DNA of 64,000 nucleotides from Hyaloperonospora brassicae (taxonomy: Eukaryota; Oomycota; Peronosporomycetes; Peronosporales; Peronosporaceae): the NCBI GenBank assembly GCA_947650285.1, contig CANTFL010000470.1, forward strand, positions 434,001 through 498,000, given 5' to 3'. Position numbers and translations under genes: made by a program. Shown here piece by piece: positions 24,370 through 56,141 of this stretch. The notes under the pieces were generated by a model. That model was not told the origin of the DNA. It ran no database searches and saw only the letters and a list, made by a program, of their open reading frames with translations. Each line of letters starts with the position of its first letter. The stretch's first letter is position 1.

Positions 24370-24536
24370 TTTTTTAGAACGAACAGCGACTCTACAGTCA
24401 ACACGTTCAAATTACAACGAATTTACGATTCAACACGCTCAGAAAACAACGACTATACTATAACGATCTCAAAGAACAATGAATCTTCAAATTGACACGT
24501 TCGGTGAACAGCAACTTTATGTTTCAAAACGTACAG
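24370..24536. repeat. Left flank of C: decayed LTR-like sequence
   Basis: Sequence such as ACAACGAATTTACGATTC and CAACACGCTCAGAAAACAAC resembles the tract right after element C (32,231-32,300). Both flanks of C therefore seem to be pieces of one older LTR-related repeat that C was inserted into. Confidence 0.4.
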
Positions 24537-25071
24537 TGTAGCAGCGCTACACAGCTCCTTAAGTCAGAGGAAGACTTAACGCTCAATGAGCCACTCAAGG
24601 TTCACAGAACCCGACTCAAAGAGTCAACAGCTCAAAGAGCTAAGGCTTCGTTTAAAGAACCCGACTCAAAGAGTCAACAAGCTCAGAGAGCTTACGGTCC
24701 CTGTTCCAAGGGGACCAAACGATTCAAAGAATCAATCGCACTAAGTGCACAAGGAGTAGCTGCCTTAGCAAGGCGTTGCTAATTCCTTAAGATCGCAAGA
24801 CGCCTCGGAGAGGCACGTGTCTTTTGTTGATCAAAATGGGAACTGAATTTTGTTTCTTCTTTTAACCTAGAAGAACACCGTAGAACAAAGTAATTAACCC
24901 ATTCGCTAATGTCCTAAATAAAACCTCTAAAAAGATCTCGTAATCAATTGTTGACAGACATCAGTCTTCAACAATTGATACCGTGTTCGAATATTATTTT
25001 AATGAGGATCCCGTCCCTTGTGTGCACCACACCTATTGTCAACTACCAGTCGACGTGTAACCCCCGTTACA
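24537..25071 (-). repeat. 3' LTR of element C
   Basis: A 535-bp repeat. Its first 117 bp resemble C's other LTR, but from 24,654 to 25,071 it is identical to the 3' LTR of element E, and the identity continues into the interior to 25,190. It is largely a chain of short hairpins. Confidence 0.92.
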
Positions 25072-25180
25072 CCCTCCCCTACGAGACTGACATTTTCACA
25101 AAACGTCAATCGAATTTTTTTCTTAAAGAGGACGGTATGTGTGCGCTTTAACCTTCACGGTTGGCAAAACACAAAACACC

Positions 25181-39843: not shown

Positions 39844-39848
39844 CTAAG

Positions 39849-40239
39849 TGTAACGGAACACACCCTTGCGTAACTTAACGCAAGGGATTTGGGTGCCCCG
39901 ACGGACGTACACGTGGCAAGCGAGGAAGCGTAGGTAGGGTAAAAGTAGAACTGTTATATTAATAAATTAAGTCTTTAAACTACTGTCTCTTCGTTTGACT
40001 TAATCCAATTATACTAATATAACTGCATGTATGGTGACGTCTCGTCACCACTCATTGCGCGCGTCTTGCGGCGATTGGTGGGTTGATATCATCACGATAT
40101 CAACCAATGAACAGACCCTTTGGTCGACCCTTCAATATCACCACTTTGGTGATATTGTTTTAAAGAATATCCATCTTTATATTCTTTATTGTCACTTTCC
40201 TTAAAATGACAATTTCATGTAACGGGCTGCCCCGTTACA
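39849..40239 (-). repeat. 3' LTR of element D
   Basis: Starts TGTAACGG and ends CCCGTTACA, so the LTR itself has palindromic ends. It contains a series of perfect hairpins, among them GGTGACG/CGTCACC, GGTTGATATC/GATATCAACC and CAATATCACCA/TGGTGATATTG. Confidence 0.95.
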
Positions 40240-40250
40240 TCACCCCCCTT
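40240..40250 (-). promoter_or_regulatory. Polypurine tract of element D
   Basis: The minus strand reads AAGGGGGGTGA directly before the 3' LTR, the standard plus-strand primer for LTR retrotransposons. Elements C and E have AGGGGAGGG at the same place. Confidence 0.8.
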
Positions 40251-40354
40251 AACTGATATTCACCGTGTGACTATCGAAAACATGGAGGCCACCCGTTGGC
40301 CACCATTGGGACAGGGAGCACTTGTTGGGTCCGTTCCATTCACTTTCCGCTTGA

Positions 40355-40383
40355 CCTCGCATAGTTAACATGTCTATGCGAGG
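40355..40383 (+). promoter_or_regulatory. Hairpin holding the start codon of the antisense ORF
   Basis: The perfect 10-bp stem CCTCGCATAG (40,355-40,364) / CTATGCGAGG (40,374-40,383) has a 9-nt loop, TTAACATGT, that contains the ATG at 40,370. This would present or hide the start codon in the mRNA. Confidence 0.7.
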
Positions 40384-41959
40384 TGACTCAAGACCCACAC
40401 AGCCTGGTGCTGTGCAAGCCTCTGCGGCAGACGCTTCGTCGTCTGCCGCCCCTTCTTCGCCTGCAGCAACAGGTGCTGCAGGTGCACGCGGTATCACACC
40501 GCGTGCGCACGATGACCCTGATGTAGAGGTCATCTACTCTGGCGAGTCAGACGTGTCTGACTCGGGCAATGCTCCAGAGGCGTCTCGCTCACCGGCGACG
40601 CCTCAGTATTCGCCAAGACCACTGCCGAACGAACGGACTCGTGATTTGCATCACAGTCTGTTCGGCAGTGATGATGATGATGATCAGGGTGGTGAGTTCT
40701 ATTCTTCACCACCGCCGGCTCGTGCGTCTTCGCACGAGCGTGATGACGATGGCGCGAGCCGTGGTACCGACAAGGGTACCACTGTGAAGCGTGATGAGTT
40801 GAAGCCGTGGCGTTTGCCCGAACAACTCATCAATAGCCTGTCTCACGAGACAGGCCAACACCATCGAATACCCTTATTCGATGCAACCGAGCTTCACGGC
40901 TTGAGTTCCAGCGCGAAGAACTTTCGCGCTCAAGAAGAATTTTATCTCGATGTCTTTCTTAGACATCGATGGTACAATAGCAACCAAAAGCGTGACAAAA
41001 CATCGCTTTTGGCTGCGTGGAACGCGTTCGTCCAAAACGTAAAGAATTTTGGACGAGAAGGGTGGCTCAAGAAACTTGAGGCAACACGCCTCAGGTTCGA
41101 ACGGCGAACGCCAACCGGTGCTAGGTACCGGTTGCATTGTTTATCGAGTGAGGCAGGCATTCCTTGCCTCACATGGGGAGACCCTTGTGCGAGTTGTGTT
41201 GACAACTCGCAGCGTTCACATAGGGATGTGTACTCCCTAAATTCGCCCTGGGGAAGGGCACATCTCTCGGACGAGATGCGTGACGCGATTGCAAACTTGC
41301 AATCCGTCTACAAGCGCCTAGGGCGCGTGTTTACCGATGGGCCACAGTACTCATCGGATGGGTCTCGTCATACTGGCGGACGAGACCTTCAACATCCATT
41401 AACAGCTGAGAGCGGGGCTCCCAGCTGTTCCAAGAGGGTGGATACCCCCGCCACTGGACGAGGTAGCTCGTCCTTGATCCTGAATCGTCACGGTGATTCA
41501 AGATACGCTCCACTAGAAAGCATTGATCACCGTGAGCATCCACCAAAGGATGTGGTGGAGGAGGAAAGACCTCCTCCAGATGATTCTGTTCACCATCTCG
41601 ACCCTTACGAGATGGATCGCGCAATCGATGAATTGCGCGATGACTTGAAGCACGAGCGCGATCGGCGCTACGCTTTGACCGATACCGTGCGGAAGAACCG
41701 CAAGGGTCACGAGGCTGATCGGGCGAGGGATCGCGCCTATTATGCCACGGCGCAGCTTCAGGTCGAGGGGGATGTCCGCTCCCTATTCGGCGAGCTGGCG
41801 ACAGCTCGCGGGGAGATATCTCAGTTGAGTTCCGAGGTATCATATCTGCGCGACCAGACGGATCGTCTGGAGCGCGAACGCAAGAACTTGATGGATGTTC
41901 TTGAACTTGGGGGCTATCTTCATAGGAAGAAGAAGGCTCGTACTGACAGTACGACCTAA
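40370..41959 (+). CDS. Antisense ORF protein of element D, 529 aa, unknown function
   Basis: An intact ORF opposite to pol, starting 131 bp inside the 3' LTR. Residues 1-150 are low-complexity, rich in Ala, Ser, Pro and Asp (an acidic run SDDDDDQGG near 105). Residues about 150-330 look globular, with many Trp/Tyr residues (FLRHRWYNSNQKRDKTSLL; AAWNAFVQNVKNFG) and a Cys cluster (CLSSEAGIPCLTWGDPCASC). Residues about 405-515 are a long predicted coiled coil (ELRDDLKHERDRRYALTD; SSEVSYLRDQTDRLERERKN), ending in a basic tail (HRKKKAR) that may be nuclear targeting. The last 629 bp (41,331-41,959) also encode the pol chromodomain on the other strand. The intact frame in a copy with broken pol argues it is a real gene. 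No family recognised. Confidence 0.75.
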   Translation: MSMRGDSRPTQPGAVQASAADASSSAAPSSPAATGAAGARGITPRAHDDPDVEVIYSGESDVSDSGNAPEASRSPATPQYSPRPLPNERTRDLHHSLFGSDDDDDQGGEFYSSPPPARASSHERDDDGASRGTDKGTTVKRDELKPWRLPEQLINSLSHETGQHHRIPLFDATELHGLSSSAKNFRAQEEFYLDVFLRHRWYNSNQKRDKTSLLAAWNAFVQNVKNFGREGWLKKLEATRLRFERRTPTGARYRLHCLSSEAGIPCLTWGDPCASCVDNSQRSHRDVYSLNSPWGRAHLSDEMRDAIANLQSVYKRLGRVFTDGPQYSSDGSRHTGGRDLQHPLTAESGAPSCSKRVDTPATGRGSSSLILNRHGDSRYAPLESIDHREHPPKDVVEEERPPPDDSVHHLDPYEMDRAIDELRDDLKHERDRRYALTDTVRKNRKGHEADRARDRAYYATAQLQVEGDVRSLFGELATARGEISQLSSEVSYLRDQTDRLERERKNLMDVLELGGYLHRKKKARTDSTT

Positions 41960-42544
41960 GCCTCCCCACGTAAAACGTAGGATGCGTGCGCATCCTACGT
42001 GGCAATTCGAGTGTGTATGCATTGCCCTTGCGATGCAACACTCGAAATGGCCCAATGTACTTCGGCAGTAGTTTGCTACTGCCGACACTAGTGACTGCAT
42101 GTCCAGGTAGGTTTACCGTTGACAGTAGTACTAGGTCGTTAACCTTAAATGAAAGAATATTTGCTCTTCCATTCTTGTCTGCGTTCCGTTTCTGACGGTC
42201 CACCGCATTTGCTATGGAGTCCTGAACGAAACGGACTACCGCTTCTCGAGTCAGCAGGAAGTTCTCTGCTGACTCTTTGTTTTGTCTGGCAGTGCGCTTC
42301 GTGCGCACTGCTAAGAGATTGCTCTCTTCTTCAGCGAGGTTGTCTTCTTCCTCGCTGAAATAATCGTTGGCGATGCTGAATATACCAGCATCGTCATCAT
42401 CATCCGAATCAATAATAGCGTCTTCGCTATTATTGAGATGATCTTCTTCATCGATGTCGACTTGATCGACATCGGCATCATACGTGACGACGTTTGCGTC
42501 GACAAGTGATGAGCAATAGTCAAAACGGTTTTTGCTCGAGCGAG
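41331..42544 (-). pseudogene. Integrase C-terminus and chromodomain of element D
   Basis: Open from about 42,544 to a stop at 41,331 but in a different frame from the integrase core; a single extra base in the C-run at about 42,545-42,555 explains the shift. It starts with an acidic linker (DQVDIDEEDHLNNSEDAIID), then the GPY/F module (YIGPFRVLHRKGNAYTLELP), a Pro/Ser/Arg-rich linker, and a canonical chromodomain (FLVERILNHRDD; SYLVQWRGYPPSWNSWEP). The chromodomain would recognise modified histones and steer integration. The part below 41,959 is shared with the antisense ORF. Confidence 0.8.
42411..42434. repeat. Example of perfect coding-region hairpin in D
   Basis: AATAATAGCG / CGCTATTATT, 10-bp stem with a 4-nt loop, inside the acidic linker of pol. 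The next one follows at 42,452-42,474 (CGATGTCGA / TCGACATCG). They represent a pattern repeated across the element. Confidence 0.9.
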
Positions 42545-42559
42545 TCCCTCCCCCTTATC

Positions 42560-43484
42560 CAAGAGTTGCACTCTATAAGGGTGGGCACTCGTGGATGGCG
42601 TAGGCCATTCACGTAAAACGGTGTGTGCTGTGTTGAAGCATGCACCGAATTATTGATGGCGAATTCCACCATGGGTAGGAATTCGCCCCAACTCGGAAAC
42701 GAGTGGACATATCCTCAAAGAATCTCTTCGAGGACACGGTTCGCACGTTCCGTCTGACCATCTGTTTCTGGATGGTCAGAAGTGGACATCTTCAATCGTG
42801 GCTGAGAGTACGGAACACGGTTTGCCAAAATTCCGCCGTGAACCGAGGGTCACGGTCGGATACGAGTTCACGGGGTAACCCGTGGAGTCTAAAGACCGTG
42901 TCTAGAAAGACACGAGCACAACCTTGAGCCTTGATTGACTCAGGGACAGCAGCAAGATGGACCATCTTGCTGAATCGGTCTACAAACACAAGAATACCAT
43001 TATTCTTGTGAGCGTCTTCGGGTTTCCCGAAGACGAAGTCCATTGAAACGGACTGCCAGCACTCTGTCGGAACAGGCAGAGGCTGCAATGGCGCACGGGA
43101 TGAGGGACTAGGCTTCGCCCGTTGACAAACCTCGCAAGCACGTATGTACTTGCGGACAAACTGATACTGGCGTGGCCAGTAAAAGTCACGACTTACCGTG
43201 AGGTAAGTCTTTTCCCTTCCACGATGGCCGCTTGTTGGGGCATCGTGACACTTGTACATGACGCGCAACCGCAAATCATGATGAGCGGGTACGACGACAC
43301 GAGGCGTGTCGTCGGCAACAGCTGTATAGTACAGCAATCCGTTGCGTGTACTATACCGATCCGATGAGGATCGGTGCAAAGCCGGTAAATCCCTCATGGA
43401 TTTACTGGATGGATTCACCAGATGATCCATCAATCGCAGAAGATCCTTATCTTCCGCGTATTGCTTTCGTACGTCGTAAAGCAA
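42560..43484 (-). pseudogene. Integrase core of element D (frameshifted)
   Basis: The frame 43,484-42,792 contains the zinc-site segment (CHDAPTSGHRGREKTYLTVS; ACEVCQRAKPSP), SMDFVFGKPE (first Asp), and LVSDRDPRFTAEFWQTVF (second Asp). A one-base frameshift near 42,800 leads to TDGQTERANRVLEEIL (catalytic Glu), then a TGA at 42,715-42,717, then EFAINNSVHASTQHTPFY. All three DDE residues are present, so the enzyme was lost only recently through two lesions. Confidence 0.8.
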
Positions 43485-43614
43485 ACTTGACGACGGGACA
43501 CTGACTGACAGTGTCGCAACAGTGGGCTTATCCTCACTGTTGGATTGTGCGTCCGGCTCGAAATCGGGCCGGCGCGAAAGAGCATCCGCGACGACATTGA
43601 GTCGTCCAGGTTTT

Positions 43615-46140
43615 TTACTCCACGGAGAAGTTATACTCCGCGAAGAAAGACATCCACCTCGCCATTCTTTGCGAGAGGTGTGGGCTGTTTACGGCCGTGC
43701 GTAATGACGCATGGTCCGTGTAGACAACAAACGGTCTATCTCCCAAGAGATAGACGCGAAACTTAGCCAGTGCGTATTTCATGGCAAGGAGTTCCTTGTC
43801 ATGCACTGGGTAATTACGCTCAGCTGCTTGCAGCTGACGCGACTGATAACAGATGACGCGCTCCGCGCCATCTGCATCGAACTGCATTAACGCACAGCCG
43901 ATTGCGAAATCGCTGGAGTCACAGACCACATGAAATGGTCTGTCCTGATCTGCATTCGCCAAGATAGGCGATTGCATCAAGCTCCGCTTGATACCTTCAA
44001 AGGAACGCTGGCACTCAGCGTTCCATGACCACTTGACATTTTTCTTGAGCAAGCAAGAAAGATGAACAGTCATCTCGGCGTAGTTGCGCGAGTACTTGTG
44101 CAAGTACGCCGCAAGACCAAGGAACTTCCTTAGTACCTTGACATCGACTGGCACTGGCCAGTCGGTGATCGCCTTGATCTTTTCGGGATCAGGGCGTACG
44201 CCGTGTTTACCCACGATGCACCCAAGAAGTGGTATTTCGCTAGCCGCGAATATACACTTCTTGAGGTTTGCGTACAACTTATGCTTGCGCATAAGTTGAA
44301 GAACCTGACGAACGTGAGTTCTGTGAACTTCAACGTCCGTCTTTCCGTCCATAGCCCGGATATGGACGAACACATCGTCGAAGTAACTCGGTGCGAAGTC
44401 TCGCACCGGTCTCAACAGATTTGTTACACATCTGTTGAATGTTGCAGGGGCATTACTCAGCCCCTGTGGCATCACTAGCCACTCCCACAGCATCCCGCTG
44501 GGGGTACTCACTGCCGTGAACGGGACGTCCCGTTCACGCATCAGGATCTGATAGAATCCATCCATCAGATCCATGGACGAAAAGATGGTGCTCTTTGACA
44601 TACCATCTATGATTACGTCCTTCCTCGGTATCGGCGTCTGAGCCGGTACCGTTGCAGCATTCAACTTGTTGAATGCGTGCACTATCCGCCACCCTCCTGT
44701 GGCCTTTCGCACACAGAAGGTCGGAGAGCTGTGAGGGGATGTTGATTCCCTCACATGGCCCGCTGCTAAGCGATCGGCAAAGAACTTGTCGATCGCTATC
44801 ACTTGTTCACGAGGCAGTGGCCACTGCTTCATGACACAGTATTTCGAGCCCAGTTTGAGCTCGATCTCGTGTCGAGTGCCTTTGTCCTTAGGCAACTCGC
44901 AAGGTACGGATTCAGGGAACACATCCCTGAATTCGATCAAAACCCTATACAAAGGATTTGCCTGAAGTGACTCCCAGGATTGGGACGCGTATCGCTCAAT
45001 CCGAGTCTTCTCATCGAGGACACTTTCGTCCATCGATGAGATGCTGAGAACCCGTTCGTTCTCAGCAAATACTGTTGCCGACCGAATGTCGGTCACATAC
45101 TCGTCCTCTGTGACGAGTATGCAGATCTGCTTGACTTTGCCACTACGCAGATCACGCAAGAACCGTTTCGGTTCTAGTGTTGGCAACTGAGTTATCTCCG
45201 AAGTCATCTTCGGAGGCACAATCAGATCAAGCGTATAAGCTCCTACGCTTGATCCGTCATTAACCAAGACGTTCAACGTCTCGGTTTCTTCCTGGGAACT
45301 TGCTTCCATAGGTTGCTGAGGGCCTGATCCCTCAGCAAGCAACTCTTGAGGAACTCCTTCCTCAAGTACGTGGGGACTTTTTCCCTCGACGTATTCCGAC
45401 TGTGGCTGTGCAACCACAGTCAGGAACCGATCCTCTACGGTCGACTCTCCAGTCGACCTAGGATTTTCATGTTGCCCCTTGGGGGCAACAGACTTCTTTC
45501 TTCTAAGATGCTGCCCGCTAGGCATGCATCCATGTCCCGGTCCACTCGACTTATTCGAGTGGTGGACCTTCGGCGCAGCCTGTACTTCTGTACAGCCGCC
45601 GGGAGCTTGCTCCACAGTGTAGTGATCAACTACACTGTGATCTTGTGCAGTCGTGCTAACGACCGTACCGAAAGTGAGGCCATCGCACTCACTCGCAGAA
45701 CACCCACACGCTTGTGAACGCTCCAAGATGTTCATCAGATGGCCATCTGATGAACAAGCAGCAGGCATCTTCACGGATCGATGCTGCCAGCTCACTCTTG
45801 GCTCGTACTTTCTGAGCCAAGGTAATCCCAGGATGACATCAAATTTGTCATCCAGATCCAGTACGATGAAGTCATCATCGTACTGTTCGCCCTCTAACGT
45901 GTAGCGGATTCCTACTACACGTTTCTCAACGGTTATCGATGCGCCTGTTGCAAGGCGCACCTTCATTCTCGTAAGGGGAATGTCGCGCTCAACGAACTTG
46001 AGCCTACGACCCTCTAGTGACTGGCGACGAACAAAGTTGTTCGACGCCCCACAGTCTACTAGGGCACGAAGCGACAAATCATTCGTCGCTTCCAACTTCA
46101 AGGTGATGGGCGAAACGTCATCACAGGTGCAGAGACACAC
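43615..46140 (-). CDS. Protease-RT-RNase H polyprotein segment of element D
   Basis: A long open stretch of 841 codons. Its N-terminal part is a retropepsin with the box LVDCGASNNFVRR (near 46,050; Cys replaces the usual Ser/Thr after the Asp, as I recall for related oomycete elements) and DVILGLPWLRKYEP. RT spans the middle: SSPTFCVRKATGGWRIVHAF, PQGLSNAPATFNRCVTNLL and the catalytic YFDD at 44,374-44,385. The C-terminal RNase H has VVCDSSDFAIG, HDKELLAMKYALAKF and VYTDHASLRTAV. The frame ends where a run of six T (43,611-43,616) shifts it, just before the LSRRPDF end of RNase H. It is normally reached by frameshifting from gag; a further indel near 46,120 now separates it from that frame. 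Its 5' end has no ATG of its own. Confidence 0.85.
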   Translation of the reverse strand: MCLCTCDDVSPITLKLEATNDLSLRALVDCGASNNFVRRQSLEGRRLKFVERDIPLTRMKVRLATGASITVEKRVVGIRYTLEGEQYDDDFIVLDLDDKFDVILGLPWLRKYEPRVSWQHRSVKMPAACSSDGHLMNILERSQACGCSASECDGLTFGTVVSTTAQDHSVVDHYTVEQAPGGCTEVQAAPKVHHSNKSSGPGHGCMPSGQHLRRKKSVAPKGQHENPRSTGESTVEDRFLTVVAQPQSEYVEGKSPHVLEEGVPQELLAEGSGPQQPMEASSQEETETLNVLVNDGSSVGAYTLDLIVPPKMTSEITQLPTLEPKRFLRDLRSGKVKQICILVTEDEYVTDIRSATVFAENERVLSISSMDESVLDEKTRIERYASQSWESLQANPLYRVLIEFRDVFPESVPCELPKDKGTRHEIELKLGSKYCVMKQWPLPREQVIAIDKFFADRLAAGHVRESTSPHSSPTFCVRKATGGWRIVHAFNKLNAATVPAQTPIPRKDVIIDGMSKSTIFSSMDLMDGFYQILMRERDVPFTAVSTPSGMLWEWLVMPQGLSNAPATFNRCVTNLLRPVRDFAPSYFDDVFVHIRAMDGKTDVEVHRTHVRQVLQLMRKHKLYANLKKCIFAASEIPLLGCIVGKHGVRPDPEKIKAITDWPVPVDVKVLRKFLGLAAYLHKYSRNYAEMTVHLSCLLKKNVKWSWNAECQRSFEGIKRSLMQSPILANADQDRPFHVVCDSSDFAIGCALMQFDADGAERVICYQSRQLQAAERNYPVHDKELLAMKYALAKFRVYLLGDRPFVVYTDHASLRTAVNSPHLSQRMARWMSFFAEYNFSVE

Positions 46141-46204
46141 AATGATTGTGTATCTGGAGCAACATTCATCAAGAGATTTGCAAATTCTCTTGAGGTTGCT
46201 GGAT

Positions 46205-46244
46205 CAGTAGGGCGCTCCGCCCCTACTGACCCCGACCATTTTTT
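46205..46244 (-). promoter_or_regulatory. -1 frameshift signal between gag and pol of D
   Basis: On the minus strand the heptamer AAAAAAT (46,238-46,244) is phased A AAA AAT in the gag frame, followed by a 9-nt spacer and an 8-bp stem CAGTAGGG/CCCTACTG (arms 46,221-46,228 and 46,205-46,212, 8-nt loop). The gag stop TAG (46,223-46,225) is inside the 5' arm. The -1 frame after the site is open to about 46,090 and reads SVGAERPTDPA, resembling VGAGRPTGVEP of element E. Confidence 0.7.
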
Positions 46245-47377
46245 GATGGTCCGTCTCGCTGTTGCGGCTTCGCAACAGCGCTGGACCCACGCCCATTGCC
46301 CTTTCTGGCAAAAGGTCGTCCATTTCGCTCAGTACTGTTTGGTACTGGGCGTGGAGCACTACACTCGTATGCGTAGTGCCCTAACTTCTGACAGCGATTG
46401 CACCTCTGCACTCGCTTGTTGTTTGTAGAGCGAGGTCTCTCGCTCTCAACATAGCAGAGGTCCATTGGTTCTGGACCTCCGATCTCTTGTCGTCTCGGTG
46501 GACGATAAGAGTTTGAGCTAGCATGAGCCTGTCTCATGCTAAAGTCTTCCTGTTCCGCGGCTGATATCGCTTCTTCAAGCGTATTCAGCTCAAGGCGGAA
46601 CAGGTGGCTCCTGACGGGCCCTTCTGCGAGCCCTTGCATGAACACCGTAATCAACGTGTGTTCATGTACTGGGTTGGCAGTTATACTACTCGCAAGGAGT
46701 CGTATATGTTGTGCGTAAGCGTGCACATCACGCTTACCCTGCTTGAGTTTCAGGAGCTCTGAGCGAGCCCTAAACTCAGCACGTGGCGGCTCAAACGTTT
46801 GTCTGAGCCGGGACTTGAAGTCATCTAGCGACCTAAACACATTTGGGTCGCTACTCTCGAGTCCCAGGGACCAAGTTTTGGCACGCCCTACCAAGTGGGT
46901 CTGAGCAAATGTGAGTTTCATTTGCTCATCTTCGACGCGACAAACCCTTAGGGCTCTGTCGAGTTCGACAAACCATAGTAACAGGGAGTCCTCCGGGACT
47001 TCACTGTACTTGGAGATGTCAACTTTCATGACTTCGGGACGACGCGCATGCGCCGTCCCGCCCACAGCAGCATGGAATTGCTGCTGTCTTAACAGCTCCG
47101 TCTGTTGAGCAGCGAGTTCTCTCAACTGCTCGGCCTGTTGAGAGCCTTGCTGGTGAAGCAAGGCTACTTTCTCCCTCTCGAGAGCAAGTTCATTCTGAAT
47201 GAACTTGGCGATAGCGGCATGTTGTTGGTCTTTGTCTAGAGACTCCGACATGGTGCTGACGACGAGTTCGCCTACGGTAGAACTCATTCGTTCTACCGCA
47301 CCCCATTCGATGTCACTCAAATGGGTAAACCCTTCACGCGTGGCGTGAAAGGTGTCTTCTTCATCCAACATGAACAT
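46223..47377 (-). CDS. Gag protein of element D, 384 aa, intact
   Basis: The start at 47,377 (MFMLDEEDTF) is the first ATG after the primer-binding site. Residues about 50-110 are a Gln-rich coiled coil (EREKVALLHQQGSQQAEQLR). Residues about 125-290 form the retrotransposon gag (capsid-like) domain (LLLWFVELDRALRVCRVEDE; YAQHIRLLASSITANPVHEH). A single CX2CX4HX4C knuckle, CNRCQKLGHYAYEC, lies near residues 326-339, followed by a basic Gly/Arg tail. It would assemble cytoplasmic particles and bind genomic RNA. It ends at a TAG within the frameshift hairpin, so gag alone is the main product and gag-pol the minor one. No lesion seen. Confidence 0.9.
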   Translation of the reverse strand: MFMLDEEDTFHATREGFTHLSDIEWGAVERMSSTVGELVVSTMSESLDKDQQHAAIAKFIQNELALEREKVALLHQQGSQQAEQLRELAAQQTELLRQQQFHAAVGGTAHARRPEVMKVDISKYSEVPEDSLLLWFVELDRALRVCRVEDEQMKLTFAQTHLVGRAKTWSLGLESSDPNVFRSLDDFKSRLRQTFEPPRAEFRARSELLKLKQGKRDVHAYAQHIRLLASSITANPVHEHTLITVFMQGLAEGPVRSHLFRLELNTLEEAISAAEQEDFSMRQAHASSNSYRPPRRQEIGGPEPMDLCYVESERPRSTNNKRVQRCNRCQKLGHYAYECSAPRPVPNSTERNGRPFARKGNGRGSSAVAKPQQRDGPSKNGRGQ

Positions 47378-47386
47378 GTTGGATGA
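47361..47386 (-). promoter_or_regulatory. Hairpin over the gag start codon of D
   Basis: The perfect 12-bp inverted repeat TCATCCAACATG (47,361-47,372) / CATGTTGGATGA (47,375-47,386) has only a 2-nt centre. Codons 1 and 3 of gag (both ATG on the minus strand) lie in its arms. Confidence 0.75.
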
Positions 47387-47421
47387 TGTGGTCCTTGGAA
47401 GGACTACAAAGTGCTACCAGG

Positions 47422-47812
47422 TGTAACGGGGCACACCCTTGCGTAACTTAACGCAAGGGATTTGGGTGCCCCGACGGACGTACACGTGGCAAGCGAGGAA
47501 GCGTAGGTAGGGTAAAAGTAGAACTGTTATATTAATAAATTAAGTCTTTAAACTACTGTCTCTTCGTTTGACTTAATTCAATTATACTAATATAACTGCA
47601 TGTATGGTGACGTCTCGTCACCACTCATTGCGCGCGTCTTGCGGCGATTGGTGGGTTGATATCATCACGATATCAACCAATGAACAGACCCTTTGGTCGA
47701 CCCTTCAATATCACCACTTTGGTGATATTGTTTTAAAGAATATCCATCTTTATATTCTTTATTGTCACTTTCCTTAAAGTGACAATTTCATGTAACGGGC
47801 TGCCCCGTTACA
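47422..47812 (-). repeat. 5' LTR of element D
   Basis: 391 bp, differing from the 3' LTR at about four sites (two near the start, T/C at the TTAAT[T/C]CAA position, G/A near the end). In this copy one hairpin, ATTGTCACTTT/AAAGTGACAAT, is perfect; in the other copy it carries a mismatch. Confidence 0.95.
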
Positions 47813-47817
47813 CTAAG

Positions 47818-48407
47818 GAGGACAGGAACATGTATTTAGAATATTAAACGCACCGGCTAGACCTACTGAATATATGTAAAAGTGTTCTTTAAATCGCGCG
47901 TTTGTCTTTGTTGTGAGACATGACAACGGCAGGCAGTGGCGTCGTCCAAAACTCGCTACCGCAGTCACTTTCTTGTACTTGTGTGATGTACAATTGACAT
48001 CTATTATATCCAGATCATAATTCTAATGTATTCATTTAAACAGAGACTACTCAGTGATGTCGACGATCTCAACCGGATATGCTTATGCTCTCCGTCCATA
48101 ATAGAGCTTCTGTAGCAATAGCGAACAACCATTTATCGCTGTCAAGAGCGTTGTGTAGACAAGGTCAACTATGATTGCGTCGTCACGGCGATCAATGTGG
48201 TACTTTTATTAATCAGACTACGTCGCCAACAGAGACGCATATAGTACTATCAATAGACAGTACCCCGAGATTGCACTCATGCATGAGATGGTTGAGGTAT
48301 TAAAATTATTGTCTAGTGTTAATCTCTTCTGTCAACGCTACAACATGCAGTTTACCGGCACTGCATATTGACCTGGTCAAGTTGCACATCGCGTACGACA
48401 GTCCGCG
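47818..48407. other. Spacer between elements D and E, no gene seen
   Basis: About 590 bp of unremarkable sequence, with no frame or repeat I can interpret. The last five bases before element E (CCGCG) are the likely left target duplication of E. Confidence 0.4.
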
Positions 48408-48942
48408 TGTAACGGGGGTTACACGTCGACTGGTAGTCGACAATAGGTGTGGTGCACACAAGGGACGGGATCCTCATTAAAATAATATTCGAACACGGTA
48501 TCAATTGTTGAAGACTGATGTCTGTCAACAATTGATTACGAGATCTTTTTAGAGGTTTTATTCAGGACATTAGCGAATGGGTTAATTACTTTGTTCCACG
48601 GTGTTCTTCTAGGTTAAAAGAAGAAACAAAATTCAGTTCCCATTTTGATCAACAAAAGACACGTGCCTCTCCGAGGCGTCTTGCGATCTTAAGGAATTAG
48701 CAACGCCTTGCTAAGGCAGCTACTCCTTGTGCACTTAGTGCGATTGATTCTTTGAATCGTTTGGTCCCCTTGGAACAGGGACCGTAAGCTCTCTGAGCTT
48801 GTTGACTCTTTGAGTCGGGTTCTTTGAACCAAGCCTTAGCTCTCGGAGCTGTTGACGCTTTGAGTCGGGTTCGTAGAACCAAAGTTGCTCGTAAGAGCGT
48901 TAAGTCTCCCTCTGACTTAAGGAGCTGTGTAGCTCCGCTACA
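48408..48942 (+). repeat. 5' LTR of element E
   Basis: Starts TGTAACGGGGGTTACA (itself a hairpin) and ends GCTACA. The 3' half (48,663-48,942) is a run of about a dozen short perfect hairpins, mostly 5-bp stems with 3-nt loops, such as GACTC-TTT-GAGTC (48,804-48,816) and GGTTC-TTT-GAACC (48,818-48,830). Confidence 0.95.
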
Positions 48943-48943
48943 C

Positions 48944-48962
48944 TTGGTAGCACTAGAAGTCA
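48944..48962 (+). promoter_or_regulatory. Probable primer-binding site of element E
   Basis: TGGTAGCACTAGAAGTC starts 2-3 bases after the LTR, with the TGG expected for pairing with the CCA end of a tRNA. The D element has TGGTAGCACTTTGTAG at the same place. The tRNA was not identified. Confidence 0.5.
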
Positions 48963-55601: not shown

Positions 55602-56136
55602 TGTAACGGGGGTTACACGTCGACTGGTAGTTGACAATAGGTGTGGTGCACACAAGGGACGGGATCCTCATTAAAATAATATTCGAACACGGTATCAATT
55701 GTTGAAGACTGATGTCTGTCAACAATTGATTACGAGATCTTTTTAGAGGTTTTATTTAGGACATTAGCGAATGGGTTAATTACTTTGTTCTACGGTGTTC
55801 TTCTAGGTTAAAAGAAGAAACAAAATTCAGTTCCCATTTTGATCAACAAAAGACACGTGCCTCTCCGAGGCGTCTTGCGATCTTAAGGAATTAGCAACGC
55901 CTTGCTAAGGCAGCTACTCCTTGTGCACTTAGTGCGATTGATTCTTTGAATCGTTTGGTCCCCTTGGAACAGGGACCGTAAGCTCTCTGAGCTTGTTGAC
56001 TCTTTGAGTCGGGTTCTTTGAACCAAGCCTTAGCTCTCGGAGCTGTTGACGCTTTGAGTCGGGTTCGTAGAACCAAAGTTACTCGTAAGAGCGTTAAGTC
56101 TCCCTCTGACTTAAGGAGCTGTGTAGCTCCGCTACA
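55602..56136 (+). repeat. 3' LTR of element E
   Basis: 535 bp. Differs from the 5' LTR at about four sites. At three of these sites where the 3' LTR of C can be compared, C agrees with this copy. Confidence 0.95.
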
Positions 56137-56141
56137 CCACG

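Follow-up and report, generated by a model that had tools for sequence, protein, structure and literature searches.

Short perfect hairpins along both strands of a Ty3/Gypsy retrotransposon family in the oomycete Hyaloperonospora brassicae

Structure and genes of element D

The window analysed here, a 64,000-nucleotide stretch of the genome of Hyaloperonospora brassicae (contig CANTFL010000470.1, positions 434,001 to 498,000), contains a retroelement, here called element D, in which short perfect hairpins follow one another through coding and non-coding parts alike. D is a Ty3/Gypsy long terminal repeat (LTR) retrotransposon with a chromodomain, carried on the minus strand. Its gene order of gag, protease (PR), reverse transcriptase (RT), RNase H (RH) and integrase (INT) is that of Ty3/Gypsy chromodomain elements, and the chromodomain is located at the integrase C-terminus (PF00385, E 1e-13). 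LTRs with TG...CA ends, a 5-bp target duplication and a purine tract are all present. The sequence CCTGGTAGCAC follows the LTR and was considered as a possible tRNA primer-binding site; no tRNA was matched to CCTGGTAGCAC. The features of the locus, in window coordinates, are as follows.

39844..39848, no strand: target-site duplication CTAAG, left copy, from the sequence
39849..47812, no strand: hairpin comb of 118 perfect stem-loops, about one third of the element covered, coding and non-coding, from the repeat count
39849..40239, minus strand: left LTR (3′ LTR in element sense), 391 bp, 4 differences from the right LTR
40240..40250, minus strand: probable polypurine tract, AAGGGGGGTGA in element sense, adjoining the LTR, a role suggested by its position
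40370..41956, plus strand: antisense open reading frame (ORF), 529 aa, 27 hairpins
41331..41956, no strand: zone open on both strands, where the antisense ORF overlaps the C-terminal end of pol, 626 nt, 10 perfect hairpins
41334..42554, minus strand: C-terminal part of pol, SH3_Tf2-1 and chromodomain, 18 hairpins
42795..43688, minus strand: integrase part of pol, H2C2 zinc finger and rve core, 13 hairpins
43013..43035, no strand: hairpin with 10-bp stem and 3-nt loop, TTT in D, AAA in the better-preserved copy L010 and others, from the copy comparison
43618..46203, minus strand: protease, reverse transcriptase and RNase H part of pol, 38 hairpins
46226..47377, minus strand: gag (Retrotrans_gag / Ty3 capsid; zinc knuckle below cut-off), 14 hairpins
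47422..47812, minus strand: right LTR (5′ LTR in element sense), 391 bp
47813..47817, no strand: target-site duplication CTAAG, right copy, from the sequence

The pol of D is spread over several frames, and this copy is therefore broken. The family is present in high copy number (at least 54 matches at 97–100% protein identity). The PR-RT-RH protein has 462 relatives, with 46–94% identity over the aligned part among the 120 listed; those named among the matches listed belong to Peronospora, Phytophthora, Globisporangium, Pythium and Aphanomyces. A scan of IMG/VR with the pol protein of D returned no relative. The Ty3/Gypsy chromodomain elements of oomycetes (Peronospora, Phytophthora, Globisporangium, Pythium) resemble D in domain content and protein sequence; to our knowledge, no hairpin comb is known in these relatives, the comparison being one of proteins alone.

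The antisense ORF encodes a protein with an acidic N-terminus, a conserved helical middle part and a long C-terminal coiled coil. Ten relatives were detected, two of them named Peronospora matthiolae, with identities of 35–53% and, in one case, 84%. Its AlphaFold model, a long helix, has a mean predicted local distance difference test (pLDDT) score of 51.5 and gave no PDB match at E<=0.001. No relative of this ORF was found in C or E, two further elements of the window that are 87% alike.

Hairpin content and folding energy

Element D (39849-47812, 7,965 nt) contains 118 perfect inverted repeats with a stem of at least 7 bp and a loop of 2–10 nt, whereas 60 dinucleotide shuffles of the whole element have 3.8 on average and never more than 9; for stems of at least 9 bp the count is 65 versus 0.0 in 10 shuffles. 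Outside D, the other 56 kb of the window contain 54 repeats of this kind, and the boundaries of the comb coincide with those of D. All 13 hairpins cited in the initial annotation proved perfect at their coordinates, in stem and loop, and its statement that hairpins run throughout the LTRs, gag, pol and the antisense ORF is borne out by counts above those of shuffled sequences. Codon-preserving shuffles (100 per frame), a check named in advance, left the observed density far above expectation everywhere: 27 hairpins versus 1.7 (maximum 5) in the antisense ORF, 18 versus 1.5 (maximum 5) in the INT/chromodomain frame, 13 versus 0.7 (maximum 4) in the INT frame, 38 versus 1.7 (maximum 5) in PR-RT-RH and 14 versus 1.2 (maximum 4) in gag.

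Stems of 8–10 bp and loops of 4–5 nt are the commonest, and a typical hairpin would have an energy of about −12 kcal/mol as RNA. The spacing of 25–40 bp originally claimed needs correction: one perfect stem of at least 7 bp is found per 67 bp or so, and the mean gap between hairpins is 34 bp when stems of at least 6 bp are counted. Hairpins are spaced in a random-like manner, without periodicity; a periodic lattice is thereby ruled out. The comb is nearly uniform along D, its density in the antisense gene (17 per kb) being slightly above that of the other parts (12–15 per kb). Imperfect stems are also in excess: 43 stems of 9 bp with one mismatch versus 3.7 expected, next to 32 perfect ones versus 0.35. 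The energies of the hairpins are more narrowly distributed than in a null of equal stem lengths and pooled bases, with a standard deviation (SD) of 3.1 versus 4.1 under RNA parameters (0/300). With DNA parameters, the reduction on the plus strand is smaller (SD 2.07 versus 2.47, P=0.003).

For D and its copies, the sister family described below and the first 20 kb of the window, folding energies were computed with ViennaRNA in 300-nt windows and are given as the minimum folding energy difference (MFED) from dinucleotide shuffles, unless codon-preserving shuffles are stated. The MFED of D is 45.9% in the sense and 45.1% in the antisense orientation, and reaches 51.8% in L010, whose pol retains 45.8% against codon-preserving shuffles. 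Other copies of the family gave 45.4% (L070) and 37.5% (L069), and ten further strand tests of the family at five loci, against codon-preserving shuffles, yielded z-scores of −11 or beyond in nine cases and −7.3 in one. By comparison, the first 20 kb of the window has an MFED of 2.2%, and 1 kb taken from a Copia element present in many copies in the same genome one of −0.4%, with no hairpins. Thirteen other open frames of at least 180 aa, which are unannotated and perhaps not genes, range from −7.8% to 10.7%, one of them with a z-score of −3.7.

Elements C and E belong to a sister Ty3 family. Five hairpin-poor loci (L054, L060-L063) adjoin matches to the RT of C at 84–88% identity, and L047 resembles them; L060, L061 and L047 have almost no perfect hairpins. 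The MFED within this family is 14.9% for L060, 12.7% for L047, 12.7% for C and 6.2% for E, and L060 keeps 10.2% and 13.5% on its two strands against codon-preserving shuffles. It had been noted by eye that the pol genes of C and E lack the pattern; this holds for dense perfect hairpins, whereas their LTRs do have hairpins and their internal regions are moderately structured, less so than D. In these LTRs (24535-25072, 48407-48944 and 55602-56138), 15–17 stems of at least 5 bp were counted versus 2.5 expected. As a separate observation, the codon-preserving folding excess of L060, L061 and L047, 10–14% on both strands, would lie near the top of one published RNA-virus panel.

Strand symmetry and coding cost

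Mismatches within stems were sorted by type. Stems with a single mismatch comprise 12 G.T, 12 A.C and 12 other mismatches in D, and 10, 11 and 7, respectively, in L010; those that separate the two main lineages comprise 16 G.T, 20 A.C and 26 other. Since G.T and A.C are equally common, the structure is needed on both strands, or else it acts as DNA. A fold maintained on a single RNA strand should gather G.U pairs on that strand, and the equality rules it out. The loops of D are T-rich on the plus strand (219 T and 140 A in loops versus 1312 and 1237 elsewhere, p=0.0007), a bias also seen in L010 (p=0.03) and not significant in L070 (p=0.17).

The register that joins third codon positions is used by 23 of 110 stems. 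The proportion is 10/65 in gag, INT and PR-RT-RH, below one third, as expected for hairpins fitted to the protein; it is 6/27 in the antisense ORF and 7/18 in the INT/chromodomain frame, where the register is not avoided. When D was compared with 22 hand-picked pol relatives from the 120 listed, departures from conserved residues numbered 1 among the 59 codons that are fully paired, 4 among the 41 that are partly paired and 14 among the 243 outside stems, and the mean match of the relatives to D was 0.53 at paired codons versus 0.58 (p=0.10). A protein change forced by the hairpins is ruled out, such departures being no commoner in stems than outside.

Evolution of the stems among copies

The copies compared, up to 29 of the 54 listed, are represented by aligned loci that are parts of the element, 2–5.5 kb long. 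Copies L070, L043, L069, L064 and L071 share 85–91% DNA identity and have hairpins at many shared places. Of the hairpins of L010 that could be compared, 35/56 are still perfect in L070, 27/50 in L043, 22/60 in L069 and 19/54 in L064. For the divergence ratios, stems were taken from either copy, as a definition from one copy biases the ratio of stems to unpaired sites downwards. Third-position divergence in stems relative to unpaired sites was 0.58, 0.56, 0.57 and 0.51 in the four lineages (each p<0.01), and the corresponding ratio at 4-fold sites was 0.43–0.62, significant in three of the four. Complementary double changes, a second check named in advance, are in excess: where both partners had changed, they remained complementary in 5/5 cases in L070, 9/13 in L043, 11/17 in L069 and 9/13 in L064, as against 29/113 in a control in which the partner was slid by 3 or 6 bases.

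Variants found in at least two of the 29 copies are depleted in stems, both at 4-fold sites (1/209 versus 19/458 unpaired, p=0.007) and over coding positions (8/1196 versus 51/2821, p=0.006). Coding singletons show no depletion (16/1196 versus 39/2821, ratio 0.97). The private changes of old copies, mostly acquired after insertion, were scored in 32 sequences, of which the 14 with at least 12 such changes were considered singly and the other 18 pooled. The pooled stem/unpaired ratio is 0.88, or about 0.93 without L043, and 7 of the 14 copies have ratios of 0.9–1.2. Only L043 (0.19) and L057 (0.23, p=0.04) depart significantly from 1 among the 14; in L043 both private changes in stems are paired, and its ratio is biased, the stems having been defined in L043 itself. 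Private changes thus fall nearly evenly in and out of stems, and the latter are apparently not maintained by the chromosome. This rules out conversion on the host chromosome and, together with the lack of structure in the 1-kb Copia piece, makes maintenance there unlikely. The stems appear to be kept during replication of the element and to decay once it is integrated.

Discussion

The above results lead us to propose that the nucleic acid of D has been under selection, acting on the element as it replicates, to fold from end to end into strong local Watson–Crick hairpins that act in its transcripts, a proposal that we consider evenly poised between right and wrong. The hairpins would have been fitted by mostly synonymous and tolerated changes and would keep sense and antisense RNA locally folded in the element's transcripts. 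Antisense RNA might come from the antisense gene of the element and from read-through from outside into many copies. The folded strands would then not anneal into a Dicer substrate, and guides of 20–26 nt would meet few open sites. Defence against antisense annealing and small-RNA silencing is our best guess as to the function. It is suggested by the equality of the two strands, by the presence of the antisense gene, by the hairpins themselves, since stems of this length are too short for Dicer, and by a report on Argonaute proteins. In Phytophthora infestans, according to this report, AGO1 carries Gypsy-derived small RNAs and AGO4 Copia-derived ones (PMC6284064). That the extreme folding of both strands is an armour against sense–antisense annealing and small-RNA silencing, in an element that has its own antisense gene, is nevertheless tentative, and we regard it as somewhat doubtful.

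Several observations weigh against the proposed selection on transcripts or against its link to silencing. Compensation is real but modest, as many of the differences between lineages in stems are one-sided losses, and over all sites singletons, too, are fewer in stems, although not significantly so (19/1571 versus 71/3939, p=0.13). Selection on a single RNA strand would not usually leave G.T and A.C mismatches equal in number, and this equality would suit a role at the DNA level as well. Moreover, the 12 stem polymorphisms common to copies are, on the plus strand, 8 G.T, 2 A.C and 2 other, compared with 45, 37 and 68 among private changes; the excess of G.T is thus on the strand complementary to the genomic RNA. 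The comb is not limited to the region where antisense RNA is expected, since its density is nearly equal in and out of the antisense gene, and the lack of structure in the Copia piece means that silencing pressure would have to differ between Copia and D. That the RNA of the element folds in this way in cells is a prediction. Lastly, the loop at 43013-43035, read as an inversion from AAA to TTT, shows that template switching does occur.

The last point leads to the alternative in which the element's RT folds the nascent strand back on itself and uses one arm as template for the other; near-palindromes arising by chance would in this way become and stay perfect, and would have no function. Strict Watson–Crick pairing, equality of the strands and maintenance in replicating lineages only would all follow from such arm-copying. 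Of the copies compared, none but that of the window has the TTT loop, and loop inversion is a known product of template switching, described in yeast (PMC8604942); the process is reported to be able to create and maintain hairpins (PMC8794818). Template-switch mutations thus resemble D in the homogenisation of arms and the inversion of spacers, but as described in these sources they are isolated events, whereas in D the whole element is concerned and there is evidence for selection on pairing (PMC8794818, PMC8604942). Imperfect stems, on the other hand, are in large excess in D, while conversion should yield all-or-none identity; this argument was used for nematomorph mitochondria, where the lack of imperfect repeats was taken to indicate conversion (PMC6649704). 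In addition, none of the 12 shared stem polymorphisms is two-sided, the spread of hairpin energies is smaller than expected at equal stem length, and the sister family has a weaker structure and is almost without perfect stems. In doubly synonymous pairs, complementary double changes amount to 3/36, 2/36, 2/43 and 0/36 (stems defined in one copy), below the 12–33% per-site rates of unpaired positions. Selection is therefore preferred to pure arm-copying on the basis of the imperfect stems, the narrow energies and the lack of two-sided polymorphisms, and we consider the latter process rather unlikely as the full explanation. Both causes had been put forward in the initial annotation, which named packaging, escape from silencing and RT pausing as possible roles of a selected RNA structure; the first is favoured by imperfect stems and narrow energies, and the second is represented by one loop inversion. 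The two may also cooperate, template switching providing paired changes and selection retaining them.

Alternatively, the hairpins may act in the single-stranded complementary DNA (cDNA), by protection from nucleases or deaminases or through pausing and strand transfer, rather than in RNA. This would be consistent with the lack of a preference for G.U, with the T-rich loops of the plus strand, the cDNA strand that is made first, and with the lean of shared mismatches to G.T on that same strand. However, energies are narrowed more under RNA parameters than under DNA parameters, the same loop bias corresponds to A-rich loops in the genomic RNA, and Copia elements also make cDNA, yet no structure was found in the 1 kb tested. 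A role restricted to cDNA accordingly seems distinctly unlikely.

A further possibility is that of dispersed packaging signals, by which Gag would bind the hairpins and condense the genomic RNA. The uniformity of the comb along the element and the match to gag/capsid, with its weak zinc knuckle, would agree with such a role. Nevertheless, no loop motif shared by the listed loops of 3–5 nt is apparent by eye, and packaging leaves unexplained both the structure of the antisense strand and the exclusion of G.U. The random-like spacing gives no support to a periodic form of this idea; a comb that is uniform and aperiodic speaks against a packaging lattice, and also against the idea that only the antisense gene is served. 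We therefore hold packaging to be highly improbable. That the comb merely reflects base composition or codon bias, or results from mutation acting throughout the host genome, is scarcely credible, since the shuffle controls, the Copia piece and the 13 other open frames rule out composition and codon bias and the near-even decay of stems after integration speaks against it as well. In the loci examined, no unrelated sequence of this genome had a similar density of hairpins.

Selection for pairing in transcripts would place D beside the genome-scale ordered RNA structure (GORS) of RNA viruses, with which it shares an excess of folding energy across the coding genome relative to order-randomised controls (PMC3950689). 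In the viral transcript panel of that paper MFED ranges from −3.6% to 16.0%, with a GORS threshold of 3% (PMC3950689). D and L010 exceed 3% over their coding genome, and their structure is conserved and partly covaries among relatives. The comparison of the panel's maximum of 16% with 46% for D and 52% for L010 is approximate, because UNAFold was used there (PMC3950689) and ViennaRNA here. Unlike these viruses, D is an LTR retrotransposon, with short local hairpins and Watson–Crick pairing on both strands. Genome-wide folding of the kind described in some RNA viruses appears to be taken further in D.

Perfect inverted repeats in functional coding sequence are also known from the mitochondrial genes of Nematomorpha, where the register joining third positions declines in longer repeats (PMC6649704); D likewise avoids this register overall. 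The nematomorph arms are described as 15–142 bp long, with 110 in four genomes and no excess of imperfect repeats (PMC6649704), whereas D has arms of 7–13 bp at far higher density, imperfect stems in excess and loss after integration. Local secondary structure has been discussed in relation to small RNAs in maize transposons as well, there in the form of regions resembling precursors of microRNAs, to which more small RNAs map, as opposed to the short stems along the entire length of D (PMC10760457). A paper on narnaviruses reports, in its available text, no large internal hairpins (PMC8316113). No description of an element such as D was found in the literature searched, which included few subscription journals and was not all aimed at retrotransposons.

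The case of D indicates that an 8-kb, mostly coding element tolerates a strong hairpin every 30–70 bases, its proteins being without visible damage, and that its folding excess is about three times the highest value in a published panel of viruses. The family thus offers a natural, high-copy test bed for two questions, namely the purpose of genome-wide RNA structure and the origin of hairpins by selection or by template switching. Both are directly testable, because the family, a less structured sister, an apparently unstructured Copia element and copies of various ages share one genome.

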